From Aliarcobacter sp. (GTDB taxonomy: Bacteria; Campylobacterota; Campylobacteria; Campylobacterales; Arcobacteraceae): a stretch of 64,000 nucleotides of DNA. Each line of letters starts with the position of its first letter. Position 1 is the stretch's first letter. Where the stretch lies: assembly GCA_028690445.1 (NCBI GenBank), contig JAQVBE010000006.1, positions 1-64,000 on the forward strand. Reading direction: 5' to 3'. The notes beneath the pieces are model-generated. The model was not told the origin of the DNA. It ran no database searches and saw only the letters and a list, made by a program, of their open reading frames with translations. The translations under genes and the position numbers were made by a program. Positions 46,512 through 51,534 of this stretch are shown in pieces.

Positions 46512-46928
46512 ATGATAAGAACTACTGCTTTAATATCAGATGAAGATGGATATAAAAAATATAATCTATTTGAAATACATGAAGATTTAGAACCAATAAT
46601 AGCAGATGATTATCTTGATTTTTCTTCAAAGAATTTTAAAAAAGCTGCTTATTGTGAATTGATGTATAAAAAGAATTTCTACGACAAATATGATGAAATA
46701 ACATACAAAGAAGTTTACGAAAGATATATCAATAATGAAAAGTTTAAAGAAAAAGCAAAATTTATTTATAGTGTTATTAATTATGATAGATATGTAAAAT
46801 TTGTAGAAGAAAATCAAACTATAGAAAATCCAAATGAATTAATTATCTCTTATAGTGTGGTTGATAGTGATGGCGTAAAAATAAATGTATATAATATTGG
46901 TATTAGCGATATTGCTTTTGTATTTTAA
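46512..46928 (+). CDS. Protein of unknown function
   Basis: The 138-residue soluble, acidic, tyrosine-rich protein has no recognised motif (starts MIRTTALISDEDGYKKYNLF, ends NIGISDIAFVF). The ATG is preceded by TAGGAAC. It lies alone between AT-rich spacers, between hypF and the formate-dehydrogenase-like gene, and may have arrived separately. Confidence 0.5.
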   Translation: MIRTTALISDEDGYKKYNLFEIHEDLEPIIADDYLDFSSKNFKKAAYCELMYKKNFYDKYDEITYKEVYERYINNEKFKEKAKFIYSVINYDRYVKFVEENQTIENPNELIISYSVVDSDGVKINVYNIGISDIAFVF

Positions 46929-47041: not shown

Positions 47042-47057
47042 AGTGGAGATTAAAATA

Positions 47058-49160
47058 ATGCATGGTTCTGATATAAATTCAGTATGTACTTATTGTGGTA
47101 CTGGTTGTGATATTACAGCACAAGTTGAAGATAATAAAATTGTAAAAATTTATGCTCAAAATGATGGATATGTGTCACAAGGAAAACTTTGCATAAAAGG
47201 TGCTCAAGGTTTTTCTTTTGTTGATTCAAAAGAGAGAATTAGAAATGCAAGAGTGAAAAAATCTTTTATTGAAAAAAATATAGATGAATTACCACGAGAG
47301 TTAAAAGCTAGGGTAAAAACACTGAAATCATTTGATGAAAATTATTATGAAGCTCCTTATGAATTCACAACTTCATTAGCTGCTTGGAAACTAATGGACA
47401 TAAAAGAAAAATATGGAAGACATGCCTTTTGTGGAATGGGAGGAGCTAGAACTTCATGTGAAAGTTCTTATGTATTTCAAAAATTTGTAAGAAATGCAAT
47501 GAATTCACCCCATGTTGATAACTGTGCTAGAGTTTGTCACTCACCATCTTTAAAAGGTATGAGAACAACTATTGGAGAAGGGGCTGCTACAAATCCTTTT
47601 GATGATATTTACAAAACTGAAAATATAGTTGTAATGGGTTCGAATACAACAGAAGCTCATCCAATCGTTGCAAATAGAATGATAAAAGCGGCACGAGATA
47701 AGACAGCCACTTTGTCTGTAATTGATGTAAGACAAACTCAGCTTTCAAAGTTTGGTGAGCAATTAATCATTCCTTATGAAGCAAATCTTTTGGTTTTAAA
47801 TATGATGGCTTATGTAATTTTGAGAGAGAAACTTTATAACACAGAATTTATAGATTCAAGATGTACAGGTTTTGAAGCATATAAAGACTCAATTTTAAAT
47901 GACCCGTATGCAAATCCTGAATATATGAAAAATGTATCAGGATATGAGTATTTAACTGAACAAATTCCAACAGTTGCAAGACTTTATGCCGCAAAAAAAT
48001 CTATGTTTTTCTGGGGATTAGGAATTACTGAACATCTTGATGGAAGTTATGCTGTTATGGCAATTACACATTTAGCGATGATGACTGGAAATATTGGAAA
48101 ACCAGGAACTGGACTTATGCCACTTCGAGGTCAAAACAATGTTCAAGGTGCTTGTGATACGGGATGTTTACCATATTATGGACCAGATTATTCAGTTCCT
48201 GAAGAAATAGGTTTAATGACGCCTCAATTAATCGATGAAATGATTGCAGGAAAAATAAAAGCTATGTATGTAATGGGTGAAGATATTGCTCATATTCATC
48301 CAAATCAAAATAAAGTTCATAAAGGTTTAGCAAATTTAGAGTTAATTATTTCAAATGAACTATTTATGAATGAAGTTACAAAAATGGCAGATATTATTTT
48401 TGGTGTAAAATCAGCTTATGAAAAAACAGGTGTGTATGTAAATGCTATGAGAAGATTACACCTTTCTCAACCATTAGTTGAAACAGATTTACCTGATGAT
48501 TGGGAAGTGTTAAGAGATATTGAAAATAAAATCAATGGTGAATTCGAGTTCAAAGATAGCGAAGATGTATGGAATGAAGCAAAAGAAGCAGTTGGAAGTA
48601 GATTTTCAGGTGCAACTTATCACAAACTTTCAAAAAATAGAAATAGGGGAATGCTTTGGCCTATAAAAAAAGATGATACGCCAATTCTTCATGTTGAAGA
48701 TTTTAGAACAGAAGATGGAAAAGCAACTTTTGCTTATCATCAATATCAATTAAGAGAACAAGTAAAAAAACTTGTAAATAAAGAAGAGTTTGCTAAAAAT
48801 GAGTTCTATTTAACAACGGGAAGAACTATTGTTCAGTATAACAATGCAGCGCAAACGAAAATTAGTGAAGCACTAAACTCAAAATATGATAAAGATGTTG
48901 TTTTAGCTTCAGTTGAAGATCAAGATAGAATTGGAAGTAATCATATTATTATGAGAACTCAATATGGAGAAACAGCTATTTTACCTGTAAAATTTGTAAA
49001 AACAATCAAACAAGGAACACTTTTTACAACGTTTCATCATGCTGCTTCAAAAGTAAATTATATTTTTGGAGATGAAGCAGATGAGTTAATTATGACTGCT
49101 AAATTTAAATCTGTAAGGGTTGAAATTGAGCCAATTTTTATTGAAAAGGAAGAAAAATGA
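47058..49160 (+). CDS. Formate-dehydrogenase-like molybdopterin oxidoreductase
   Basis: The 700-residue protein has an N-terminal [4Fe-4S] motif (Cys10, Cys13, Cys17 and Cys45) and the FDH active-site stretch DNCARVCHSPSLKG, with Cys160 as Mo ligand and His161. A C-terminal molybdopterin-dinucleotide domain (GRTIVQYNNAAQT) follows. There is no Tat signal, so it is cytoplasmic like FdhF (715 residues) rather than the exported respiratory enzyme. The metal ligand is Cys, not Sec. No electron-transfer subunit is adjacent; only a cupin gene overlaps (ATGA). A start fifteen bases earlier (GTG) is possible, but the ATG has TGGAG upstream. It probably oxidises formate or a related substrate. Confidence 0.82.
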   Translation: MHGSDINSVCTYCGTGCDITAQVEDNKIVKIYAQNDGYVSQGKLCIKGAQGFSFVDSKERIRNARVKKSFIEKNIDELPRELKARVKTLKSFDENYYEAPYEFTTSLAAWKLMDIKEKYGRHAFCGMGGARTSCESSYVFQKFVRNAMNSPHVDNCARVCHSPSLKGMRTTIGEGAATNPFDDIYKTENIVVMGSNTTEAHPIVANRMIKAARDKTATLSVIDVRQTQLSKFGEQLIIPYEANLLVLNMMAYVILREKLYNTEFIDSRCTGFEAYKDSILNDPYANPEYMKNVSGYEYLTEQIPTVARLYAAKKSMFFWGLGITEHLDGSYAVMAITHLAMMTGNIGKPGTGLMPLRGQNNVQGACDTGCLPYYGPDYSVPEEIGLMTPQLIDEMIAGKIKAMYVMGEDIAHIHPNQNKVHKGLANLELIISNELFMNEVTKMADIIFGVKSAYEKTGVYVNAMRRLHLSQPLVETDLPDDWEVLRDIENKINGEFEFKDSEDVWNEAKEAVGSRFSGATYHKLSKNRNRGMLWPIKKDDTPILHVEDFRTEDGKATFAYHQYQLREQVKKLVNKEEFAKNEFYLTTGRTIVQYNNAAQTKISEALNSKYDKDVVLASVEDQDRIGSNHIIMRTQYGETAILPVKFVKTIKQGTLFTTFHHAASKVNYIFGDEADELIMTAKFKSVRVEIEPIFIEKEEK

Positions 49161-49510: not shown

Positions 49511-49543
49511 AAAGACTTGAGATTTATTCTCAAGTTTGTATTT
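49511..49543 (+). terminator. Terminator after the cupin gene
   Basis: The 8-bp stem ACTTGAGA/TCTCAAGT with loop TTTAT is followed by TTGTATTT. Confidence 0.6.
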
Positions 49544-49553
49544 AATGAAATAG

Positions 49554-49748
49554 TTATTTTTTTACTTCAAATTCTTTTTTTAATTCTTTTAGCTCTTCTA
49601 AATTTTTTTCAGATTTTTCTATAATATCTTCAACCATAAGTCCTAACATTACAGTTTTATATAAATTTGGTCGATCTTTTTTCCAATTATATATAGTTTT
49701 TGTGTCAATTCCTAAATATCCTGCAATATCTCTTACTGTCATTTTCAT
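49554..49748 (-). CDS. Small HTH DNA-binding protein, divergent from the peptide-maturase locus
   Basis: The 64-residue protein has a helix-turn-helix (TVRDIAGYLGIDTKTIYNWK) followed by RPNLYKTVMLG and a charged helix (IEKSEKNLEELKELKKEFE) able to dimerise. This kind of HTH occurs in short Arcobacter-type regulators; a decayed protein with a similar HTH lies at 214-660. GGATATTAC precedes the ATG (an in-frame ATG two codons later is possible). It is transcribed away from the Tat-peptide gene, with 178 bp between the starts, so it is a candidate regulator of that gene. Confidence 0.65.
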   Translation of the reverse strand: MKMTVRDIAGYLGIDTKTIYNWKKDRPNLYKTVMLGLMVEDIIEKSEKNLEELKELKKEFEVKK

Positions 49749-49836
49749 TTGTAATATCCTTTTTAATTTAGAATTTACAAGCTCAAATGTGATAAATCAA
49801 CACAGGAATATATCTAACAAAATTGATATATTTAAG

Positions 49837-49876
49837 GAATAATTCTAAAATAATTAAATACAATAAGGAATTATTC
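49837..49876. promoter_or_regulatory. Promoter flanked by two GAATWATTC boxes
   Basis: GAATAATTC (49837-49845) and its complement form GAATTATTC (49868-49876) are 31 bp apart, three helical turns. The -10 box TACAAT (49859-49864) lies between them. The arrangement suggests a repressor binding both sites around the promoter of the peptide gene. Confidence 0.45.
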
Positions 49877-49877
49877 T

Positions 49878-49925
49878 ATGGAAATTGATTATTTTATGGA
49901 ATATATAAATTTTGGAAGGATTTAA
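49878..49925 (+). CDS. Possible 15-codon leader peptide
   Basis: The short frame MEIDYFMEYINFGRI has AAGGA eight bases upstream. It ends at TAA 49923-49925, one base before the ATG of the Tat-peptide gene and over its ribosome site (GGAAGGA at 49914-49920). It could couple translation, or be chance. Confidence 0.25.
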   Translation: MEIDYFMEYINFGRI

Positions 49926-49926
49926 T

Positions 49927-50169
49927 ATGGAACAAAATAGAAGAGATTTTTTTAAAAAATCATTTGGTGTAATGGGAACAGTTGCAACTACAGCATTATT
50001 AGCAAAAATTTCATTAACTGATGCTCAGGCATTAGGAATTGGTAAAAATAATAGTTCAGTTGATAAATCTAAAAATCCTATTGATGGTGTTGGAATATGT
50101 GGAATGGGAATGCAATGCTCTGGTGGCGGTGGTCAATGTGGAATGGGAATGAATTGTGGTGGACAATAA
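49927..50169 (+). CDS. Tat-exported Cys/Gly/Met-rich peptide, probable rSAM substrate
   Basis: The 80-residue protein begins with a Tat signal (NRRDFFKK then a hydrophobic stretch to about residue 29) and a likely cleavage after AQA (residue 35). The mature chain of about 45 residues has a plain Ser/Lys/Asn linker, then two near-identical loops: CGMGMQC (Cys58-Cys64), SGGGGQ, and CGMGMNC (Cys71-Cys77), ending GGQ. There is no other fold. The stop codon touches the start of the radical SAM gene. I infer a ribosomally made precursor whose Cys/Gly/Met core is cross-linked or loaded with metal in the cytoplasm and then exported by Tat in folded form. The family is not recognised. GGAAGGA precedes the ATG. 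Confidence 0.7.
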   Translation: MEQNRRDFFKKSFGVMGTVATTALLAKISLTDAQALGIGKNNSSVDKSKNPIDGVGICGMGMQCSGGGGQCGMGMNCGGQ

Positions 50170-51504
50170 ATGCTACAACTGACGAATATACCACATTTAA
50201 TAAATTCAATATTTTGTATTGAAAAAGATAATAAGTATATTTTGTTAAATCAAGAACTACCTGATTGGGTAGTTCTTAATCAAAATAGTGCTTATATTGT
50301 AGGATTAATAGATGGTAAAAAATCTATTGATGAAATTATAAAAATAATAATTGATAAAAATAATAATATAGATGAAAATTCTATTTTAAAATTATTTAAA
50401 AGTTTATACGAACATAATATTATTAAAAATGAAAATAACTTTGAAATTAAATTTGATAAAAAACCTTCATCTTGTTGTAGTGAAAAAAAATCTCAGAAAA
50501 AACTTTTCTTACATTCTGTTCATATAAAAATGACAGATGAATGTAATCTTGCTTGTAGATACTGTTATGCTGAAAGTGGTGGAAATTGTAAAGAAACACT
50601 TAGTTTAGATACTTTAAAAGATATTGCATACCAAGTAAAAGATATTGCTTCTCATGTAGAATATACTATTTCAGGTGGAGAACCATTATTAAATCCAGAT
50701 ACATTAGAATACATAAAGTTCTTAAAAGAATTAGGTAATGGAATTTATTTGCTTACTAATGGATTATTAATCAGTGAAGATAATGCAAAATTTTTAGCAG
50801 AAAATTGTTTAATGATTAAAATAAGTCTTGATGGAAGTAATGATGGTATTAATGCTATTACAAGAGGTAAAAATGGCTTTGATAAGATAATGAATTCTTA
50901 CGAACTATTATTGAAATATAATGCAAATGTAAAAATAAATATGACAATAACTAAAAAAAATATCAATGATATTCAAAATATGGTGAAAAAATTTGGTAGC
51001 AGACTTTCTTTACAGCCATTTTTTAAAGCTGGTAGAGGTAGTGGAAATGAAGATTTAGAAATTACAGGAAGTGAATATTTTCATGCAATGGCAAATGTTG
51101 AAGGAGTAAATCCATTGGGTGCAGTTGCAAGAAGTTTAGATACATTAAGAGGTCGAGGTGTAACTAAATGTGCAATGGCAGATTCTGAAATAAGTATTTC
51201 AGAAAATGGAGATGTTTTTCCATGTCAAATGCTTACTGATGACGAATTCTGCGGGGGAAATATTAAAACTCAATCAATAAAAGAAATTTTAAATTCAAAA
51301 GTATTTGAAAATATTAGTAGTTTTTCATCTACTACAAATGAAGACTGTAAAGTTTGTCCTATAAGATTACTTTGTGGTGGTGCTTGTAGAGCAAGGTCAT
51401 ATTTTGAAACAGGAAGCATTTTTGTAAATAGTGATTTTTGTGAATATGAAAAATTAGCATATATAAATGCAATACTAGAATATACTGAATTAGAAGAAAT
51501 TTAA
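50170..51504 (+). CDS. Radical SAM/SPASM peptide-modifying enzyme with PqqD-like domain
   Basis: The 444-residue protein has an N-terminal PqqD-like recognition domain (about 1-95: ending SILKLFKSLYEHNIIKNE), a radical SAM core with CNLACRYC (Cys125, Cys129, Cys132) and SGGEPLLNP, and a C-terminal SPASM region. The SPASM part has cysteines in KCAMADSEISISENGDVFPC, EDCKVCPIRLLCGGACRA and NSDFCEYEK, enough for two auxiliary FeS clusters. Such enzymes form thioether or carbon-carbon links, or other radical modifications, in peptides bound by the PqqD-like domain. A CysCys pair (102-103) lies in the linker. It directly follows the Tat-peptide gene with no gap (TAA then ATG), which makes that peptide its likely substrate. 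Confidence 0.85.
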   Translation: MLQLTNIPHLINSIFCIEKDNKYILLNQELPDWVVLNQNSAYIVGLIDGKKSIDEIIKIIIDKNNNIDENSILKLFKSLYEHNIIKNENNFEIKFDKKPSSCCSEKKSQKKLFLHSVHIKMTDECNLACRYCYAESGGNCKETLSLDTLKDIAYQVKDIASHVEYTISGGEPLLNPDTLEYIKFLKELGNGIYLLTNGLLISEDNAKFLAENCLMIKISLDGSNDGINAITRGKNGFDKIMNSYELLLKYNANVKINMTITKKNINDIQNMVKKFGSRLSLQPFFKAGRGSGNEDLEITGSEYFHAMANVEGVNPLGAVARSLDTLRGRGVTKCAMADSEISISENGDVFPCQMLTDDEFCGGNIKTQSIKEILNSKVFENISSFSSTTNEDCKVCPIRLLCGGACRARSYFETGSIFVNSDFCEYEKLAYINAILEYTELEEI

Positions 51505-51505
51505 A

Positions 51506-51534
51506 AAATTAGAGTGGTAAACTCACTCTAATTT
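51506..51534. terminator. Bidirectional terminator between the radical SAM gene and trxC
   Basis: The 11-bp perfect stem AAATTAGAGTG/CACTCTAATTT has a 7-base loop. It lies just after the stop of the rSAM gene and touches the stop of the convergent trxC. Confidence 0.65.

Follow-up and report, generated by a model that had tools for sequence, protein, structure and literature searches.

A candidate Tat-exported repeat peptide encoded with a single radical SAM/SPASM maturase in Campylobacterales and Desulfobacterota

Introduction

In an Aliarcobacter sp. contig, a short gene for a Tat-signal peptide with four cysteines directly precedes a gene for a radical SAM/SPASM enzyme, and the locus raises the question of what the enzyme makes of the peptide and how the product leaves the cytoplasm. 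The window (the whole 64,000-nucleotide stretch of DNA that was analysed) was compared with related loci from genome collections, and viral, phage and plasmid collections were also searched. In our estimate there is an even chance that the system is a Tat-exported RiPP whose signal peptide is also its leader and whose repeats carry small streptosactin-like thioether rings, made from one peptide and one enzyme.

Organisation and conservation of the cassette

The cassette consists of a divergent HTH gene, a gene for an 80-aa Tat-signal peptide and a gene for a 444-aa maturase (Table 1). The peptide stop codon directly abuts the maturase start codon (TAA-ATG, no gap), and terminator-like hairpins flank the cassette on both sides. 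A first-pass annotation had described an 80-residue peptide with four Cys in two CGMGM(Q/N)C loops, its TAA-ATG junction with a radical SAM gene, and a divergent HTH gene, all of which were confirmed by the ORFs; its remark that no protease or dedicated transporter is present also agrees with the gene content, no protease or transporter gene being found inside the cassette.

Table 1. Coordinates of the cassette features in the window
Feature	Position	Strand	Remarks
Terminator-like hairpin	49513..49537	+	Lies between the upstream cupin/formate dehydrogenase genes and the cassette
Small HTH gene, 64 aa, probable regulator	49554..49748	-	48% identical HTH at the same place and in the same orientation in L008
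Operator-like array, three GGAATWATTC-like sites	49805..49876	+	49805 GGAATATATC, 49836 GGAATAATTC, 49867 GGAATTATTC
Precursor peptide gene, 80 aa	49927..50169	+	From ATG to TAA; Tat signal peptide, two CGx4C repeats 13 residues apart
Radical SAM/SPASM maturase gene, 444 aa	50170..51504	+	N-terminal PqqD-like recognition domain, about residues 8-87
Terminator-like hairpin, between maturase gene and trxC	51506..51534	-	Stem near-symmetrical; scan scored the minus-strand tail

Four further loci were found to carry a CGx4C-repeat peptide directly upstream of a maturase 36-44% identical to that of the window, one in Campylobacterales and three in Desulfobacterota. The first (L008) belongs to another family of Campylobacterales and holds the full cassette (maturase 44% identical), and the others (L012, from a Desulfovibrio MAG, L028 and L029; maturases 36-42% identical) are pairs obtained from genome-contig and Desulfobacterota searches. 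All five maturase genes that have upstream DNA, the window's included, carry the peptide directly upstream; the constant adjacency predicted by the first-pass annotation was thus seen wherever both genes are visible. Judged by sequence, the peptide-maturase pair is real and its architecture conserved.

Among about 590 Campylobacterota genomes, two full cassettes (including the window) and one maturase fragment were found, counts that are a lower bound, since in the larger searches scoring was confined to the few top-ranking candidates of each genome. Co-occurrence in Campylobacterota was observed, but, unlike what had been anticipated, it is rare there and extends to Desulfobacterota. The fragment, the C-terminal part of a maturase, lies at a contig end in L010 (73% identical over 70 residues). 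Targeted searches of about 150 relatives around each of two of the loci found no further cassettes, a sporadic distribution that points to horizontal spread or frequent loss. Flanking genes differ among the other loci.

Searches of viral, phage and plasmid collections yielded no close full-length relative of the family. Pattern matches in viral contigs were rejected as unrelated Gly-rich frames, and maturase neighbours on plasmids and phages were without CGx4C-repeat peptides, as were the maturase-like matches in genomes G431, G345 and G542 (L009, L011 and L019, respectively). In the Campylobacterales genome G431, a 94-aa precursor ending CSGCGCACFSSGGAGHGCGTHAGHWA (L009 2931-3215, minus strand) lies directly upstream of a radical SAM/SPASM gene; it has no Pfam match and is a different candidate RiPP. 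On the Streptantibioticus plasmid pSCAT (L057 2055-3904), a radical SAM gene with 27% identity to the L028 maturase is preceded by an unannotated short peptide ending CSCGCGSGGGGGAGS; a separate PqqD-like frame and genes for an ABC transporter come after the radical SAM gene. A cluster on a Paraclostridium sordellii plasmid (L061 1-5885) looks like one of sactipeptide type: besides three radical SAM genes it encodes a 52-aa peptide, an ABC transporter and an S8 peptidase.

Around the cassettes themselves, a formate dehydrogenase alpha-like gene (window 47043-49160) lies upstream of that of the window, and an FdhE-like gene (assigned by eye; L012 9205-10089) downstream of that of the Desulfovibrio MAG; this is probably coincidence, the other loci being without such neighbours in the stretches seen. 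A 138-aa ORF in the hydrogenase cluster (window 46512-46928) has no Pfam match above cut-off.

Repeats and leader of the precursor

The window peptide begins MEQNRRDFFKK (RR, residues 5-6), and its four Cys all fall within the loops CGMGMQC and CGMGMNC, 13 residues apart. It is alone among the window ORFs in holding two CGx4C loops, and the arrangement of its 45-residue mature region was reproduced in 0/200,000 shuffles. The peptides contain 2 (window), 3 (L008), 4 (L012), 6 (L028) and 5 (L029) repeats, which follow the rule C-G-x-small-x-polar-C-x-G with a period of mostly 13 residues, and share a ten-residue core, C-G-x-(A/S/G/T/N)-x-(polar)-C-x-G-(G/polar). C1, G2, C7 and G9 (the Gly two after C7) are invariant in 20/20 repeats, which, several within one peptide being near copies, amount to five independent lineages, not 20. 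Across the same repeats, position 4 is small throughout (A/S/G/T/N), position 6 is always polar (N/E/D/Q/S/T), and the residue three after C7 is G, S, T, N, D or Q, each repeat having an acceptor-capable residue at i+3 and a Cys pair six apart. In the four peptides with a visible leader, the C-terminus lies exactly three residues past the last Cys (GGQ, SGS, SGS and AGN).

Loop positions 3 (M/T/L/F/G/A) and 5 (M/Y/F/A/S/H) vary freely across the 20 repeats, Met is missing from the repeats of three of the five peptides, and neither Met nor His is conserved. Conservation of CGMGMxC loops, as at first expected, accordingly holds for CGx4C and fails for the Met residues, which are a lineage feature of the window peptide, and the reading of the loops as Met-rich copper or iron sites was ruled out by this comparison (20 repeats, five peptides).

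The twin-Arg motif RRxF(F/L) is kept in 4/4 visible leaders, a hydrophobic stretch is present, and the host genome contains a TatC gene; the repeat frame of L029 has no start codon or leader in the short stretch left at the contig edge. Scores with the Tat-signal HMM lay below the curated cut-off of 16.7 bits (window, 13.8; L008, 15.7; L012, 10.3), so that the Tat assignment of the first-pass annotation is upheld by the motif and not by the HMM, while its description of a compact, Tat-exported peptide-maturase system appears supported by the leader motif and the TatC gene. A [ST][DE]A[QH][AG] stretch, found in three of the four leaders (TDAQA in the window, SEAHA in L012, SEAQG in L028) and immediately preceding the repeats in L012 and L028, is a candidate signal peptidase site, with probable cleavage of the window peptide after residue 35 (DAQA). 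Beyond RRxF, the four available leaders share little suggestive of a recognition motif.

Maturase

Pfam Radical_SAM and SPASM were above gathering in 5/5 maturases (84.6 and 44.4 bits, respectively, in the window). Pfam PqqD reached 22.3 bits in the window, just below its gathering score of 23.4, was also below gathering in L028 and L029, and was not listed for L008 and L012; of the two domains that had first been proposed, SPASM is thus above threshold and the PqqD-like N-terminus just short of it. Predicted strands 14-36 and helices 38-81 (pLDDT about 80-89) align with the CteB N-terminus. The CxxxCxxC motif (C125/C129/C132 in the window) and the SPASM auxiliary-cluster Cys are invariant across the five maturases, the SPASM Cys of the window being residues 334, 352, 393, 396, 402, 406 and 424.

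The top NCBIfam model for all five maturases was that of the sactipeptide maturase StsB (NF045574), which scored 141-183 bits (cut-off 625); in three of them the match extended from the recognition domain through SPASM. None of the listed sactipeptide-maturase models (StsB, AlbA, SkfB, GggB) reached cut-off in the five, nor did the models for PapB (86-104 bits, cut-off 340) and the SCIFF maturase (at most 92.8 bits, cut-off 425). An AlphaFold2 model of the maturase (pLDDT 79.7 from ten sequences, 59 from five) had CteB as its best full-length structural match (Z 28.4, rmsd 4.3, 396 residues including recognition domain, radical SAM core and SPASM); TigE also aligned full-length (Z 24.4), and SuiB and sactisynthases were further neighbours.

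Proposed modification and export

The PqqD-like domain of the maturase would bind the N-terminal part of the precursor, and the Tat signal peptide would therefore double as leader. The radical SAM/SPASM enzyme would form thioethers in each repeat in the cytoplasm, before export, most simply by joining each Cys to the alpha-carbon of the residue at i+3, the streptosactin pattern, with two rings per repeat. The NCBIfam streptosactin model (NF050037) matched the L008 repeats at 14.6 bits (E 0.024, far below the cut-off of 50), a weak match whose register, read from matched model positions 24-35, is nonetheless informative (C1=Cys25, S4=Ser28, C7=Cys31, G10=Gly34). Streptosactin has two Cys-to-alpha-carbon thioethers, i to i+3, at Cys25-Ser28 and Cys31-Gly34 (PMC8172795). 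Laid on the L008 repeat, this register predicts two i-to-i+3 thioether rings per repeat, and for the window peptide the predicted links are C58-G61, C64-G67, C71-G74 and C77-Q80 (four links, -8 Da). Against the i+3 reading, small +3 residues are likely anyway in a Gly-rich sequence, and the equally restricted position 6 could be the acceptor. Tat moves folded cargo, and with such a leader the cross-linked product would be exported by Tat, signal peptidase then freeing a periplasmic product of roughly 45 residues, so that no private protease or ABC exporter would be needed. The product may serve as a toxin, a signal or an envelope component; as a first guess by analogy with other sactipeptides, the end use may be that of an inter-bacterial antagonist.

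Another radical modification, with Tat export retained, is somewhat unlikely, and would comprise beta- or gamma-carbon thioethers (ranthipeptide type, with position 6 as acceptor), carbon-carbon links or epimerisation. Position 6, which is D/E/N/Q/S/T in every repeat, fits such an acceptor, but it lies five residues from C1 and not at the CX3D spacing that PapB-type precursors carry. The structural neighbours CteB, SuiB and TigE, standing beside sactisynthases, also favour it, and CteB is now grouped with non-alpha-carbon thioether enzymes, so that a CteB-like fold leaves alpha versus beta/gamma unsettled; the top curated model is nevertheless a sactipeptide maturase, and aromatics are not conserved, which leaves cyclophane chemistry without a consistent site. 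A Cys-to-acid link has a precedent in PapB, which joins Cys to Asp or Glu (PMC9413430).

Considerably less probable is a small metallopeptide whose Cys pairs would hold a metal or cluster, loaded before Tat export, and which would act in the periplasm as a metal buffer or redox carrier. Two invariant Cys per repeat, the hydrogenase and formate dehydrogenase genes upstream in the window, and the fact that Tat often carries cofactor-loaded proteins are in keeping with this, but Met and His are not conserved, the differing neighbours at other loci provide no consistent metalloenzyme link, and the enzyme is of a peptide-modifying type, not a metallochaperone. That the Tat peptide is unrelated and lies beside the maturase by chance, the enzyme having a different substrate, is hardly credible, being contradicted by co-conservation (the same adjacency in five diverged loci, with repeat number and side chains varying while Cys and Gly stay fixed).

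For many known RiPPs both a leader protease and an ABC exporter are required, and a two-gene system using Tat and signal peptidase would be simpler. If the Tat-exported, thioether-ringed peptide is the correct reading, it would explain the exit of a rigid cross-linked peptide from a Gram-negative cytoplasm, and the 2 to 6 repeats would form a natural series for the study of one enzyme on tandem sites.

HTH gene and operator-like array

Three GGAATWATTC-like sites lie exactly 31 bp apart between the HTH and peptide genes of both Campylobacterales loci (1089, 1120 and 1151 in L008), the two intergenic regions being otherwise unlike. The triple was obtained in 0/20,000 shuffles of either region, an optimistic figure, as the consensus was drawn from the same two regions. 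As an independent check, a two-site version of the pattern was sought in 379 Campylobacterales genomes and occurred in only three, in two cases at the cassettes described here (reversed-pattern control, two matches); the array appears nearly specific to the cassettes. A lone GGAATTATT site pair, 31 bp apart, at L054 1501-1540 (G044), upstream of an MBOAT-type acyltransferase gene (assigned by eye), is possibly due to chance.

The spacing corresponds to about three helical turns and so fits cooperative binding on one helix face. From the gene position we infer that the HTH protein is the binder of the sites, and a divergent HTH protein acting on a three-site, 31-bp-phased operator probably controls expression in the Campylobacterales members. 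Neither HTH relatives elsewhere nor the L012 and L028 peptides have such sites upstream. Proteins closely related to the HTH protein of the window are encoded next to DNA methyltransferase genes (L043 320-1698; L046 3-1692), where the GGAATWATTC array is lacking, and no HTH gene was seen beside the Desulfobacterota pairs (the L029 upstream DNA is too short to tell); for both reasons the HTH gene was rejected as an obligatory part.

Comparison with known systems

No NCBIfam, Pfam or literature entry describing the system was found, and in the open-licence literature no paper joined Tat, RiPP and radical SAM, save one unrelated. The pair resembles streptosactin and GggA-GggB (type II, unnested sactipeptide) in having Cys six apart, i+3 acceptors, a C-terminal Gly and a SPASM maturase, whereas these have a single core in place of tandem repeats and a Gram-positive host, and no Tat signal is known for streptosactin. 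Unlike the cassette, the streptosactin cluster has a dedicated protease (PMC8172795). The StsB family, although the top curated match of every maturase, was matched far below its own cut-off. SCIFF precursors are conserved six-Cys peptides without a Tat signal, and the TigE substrate carries a repeated motif. The SCIFF thioether maturase CteB (PDB 5wgg, 5why) shares the three-part architecture but only 20-21% identity, and TigE (PDB 8vpo, PMC9062424) likewise has a recognition domain fused to radical SAM/SPASM, but forms cyclopropylglycine at non-Cys residues and is 16% identical to the window maturase. The system is probably of the radical SAM-SPASM RiPP type, and what is new in it is the combination of a Tat leader, tandem streptosactin-like repeats and one enzyme.
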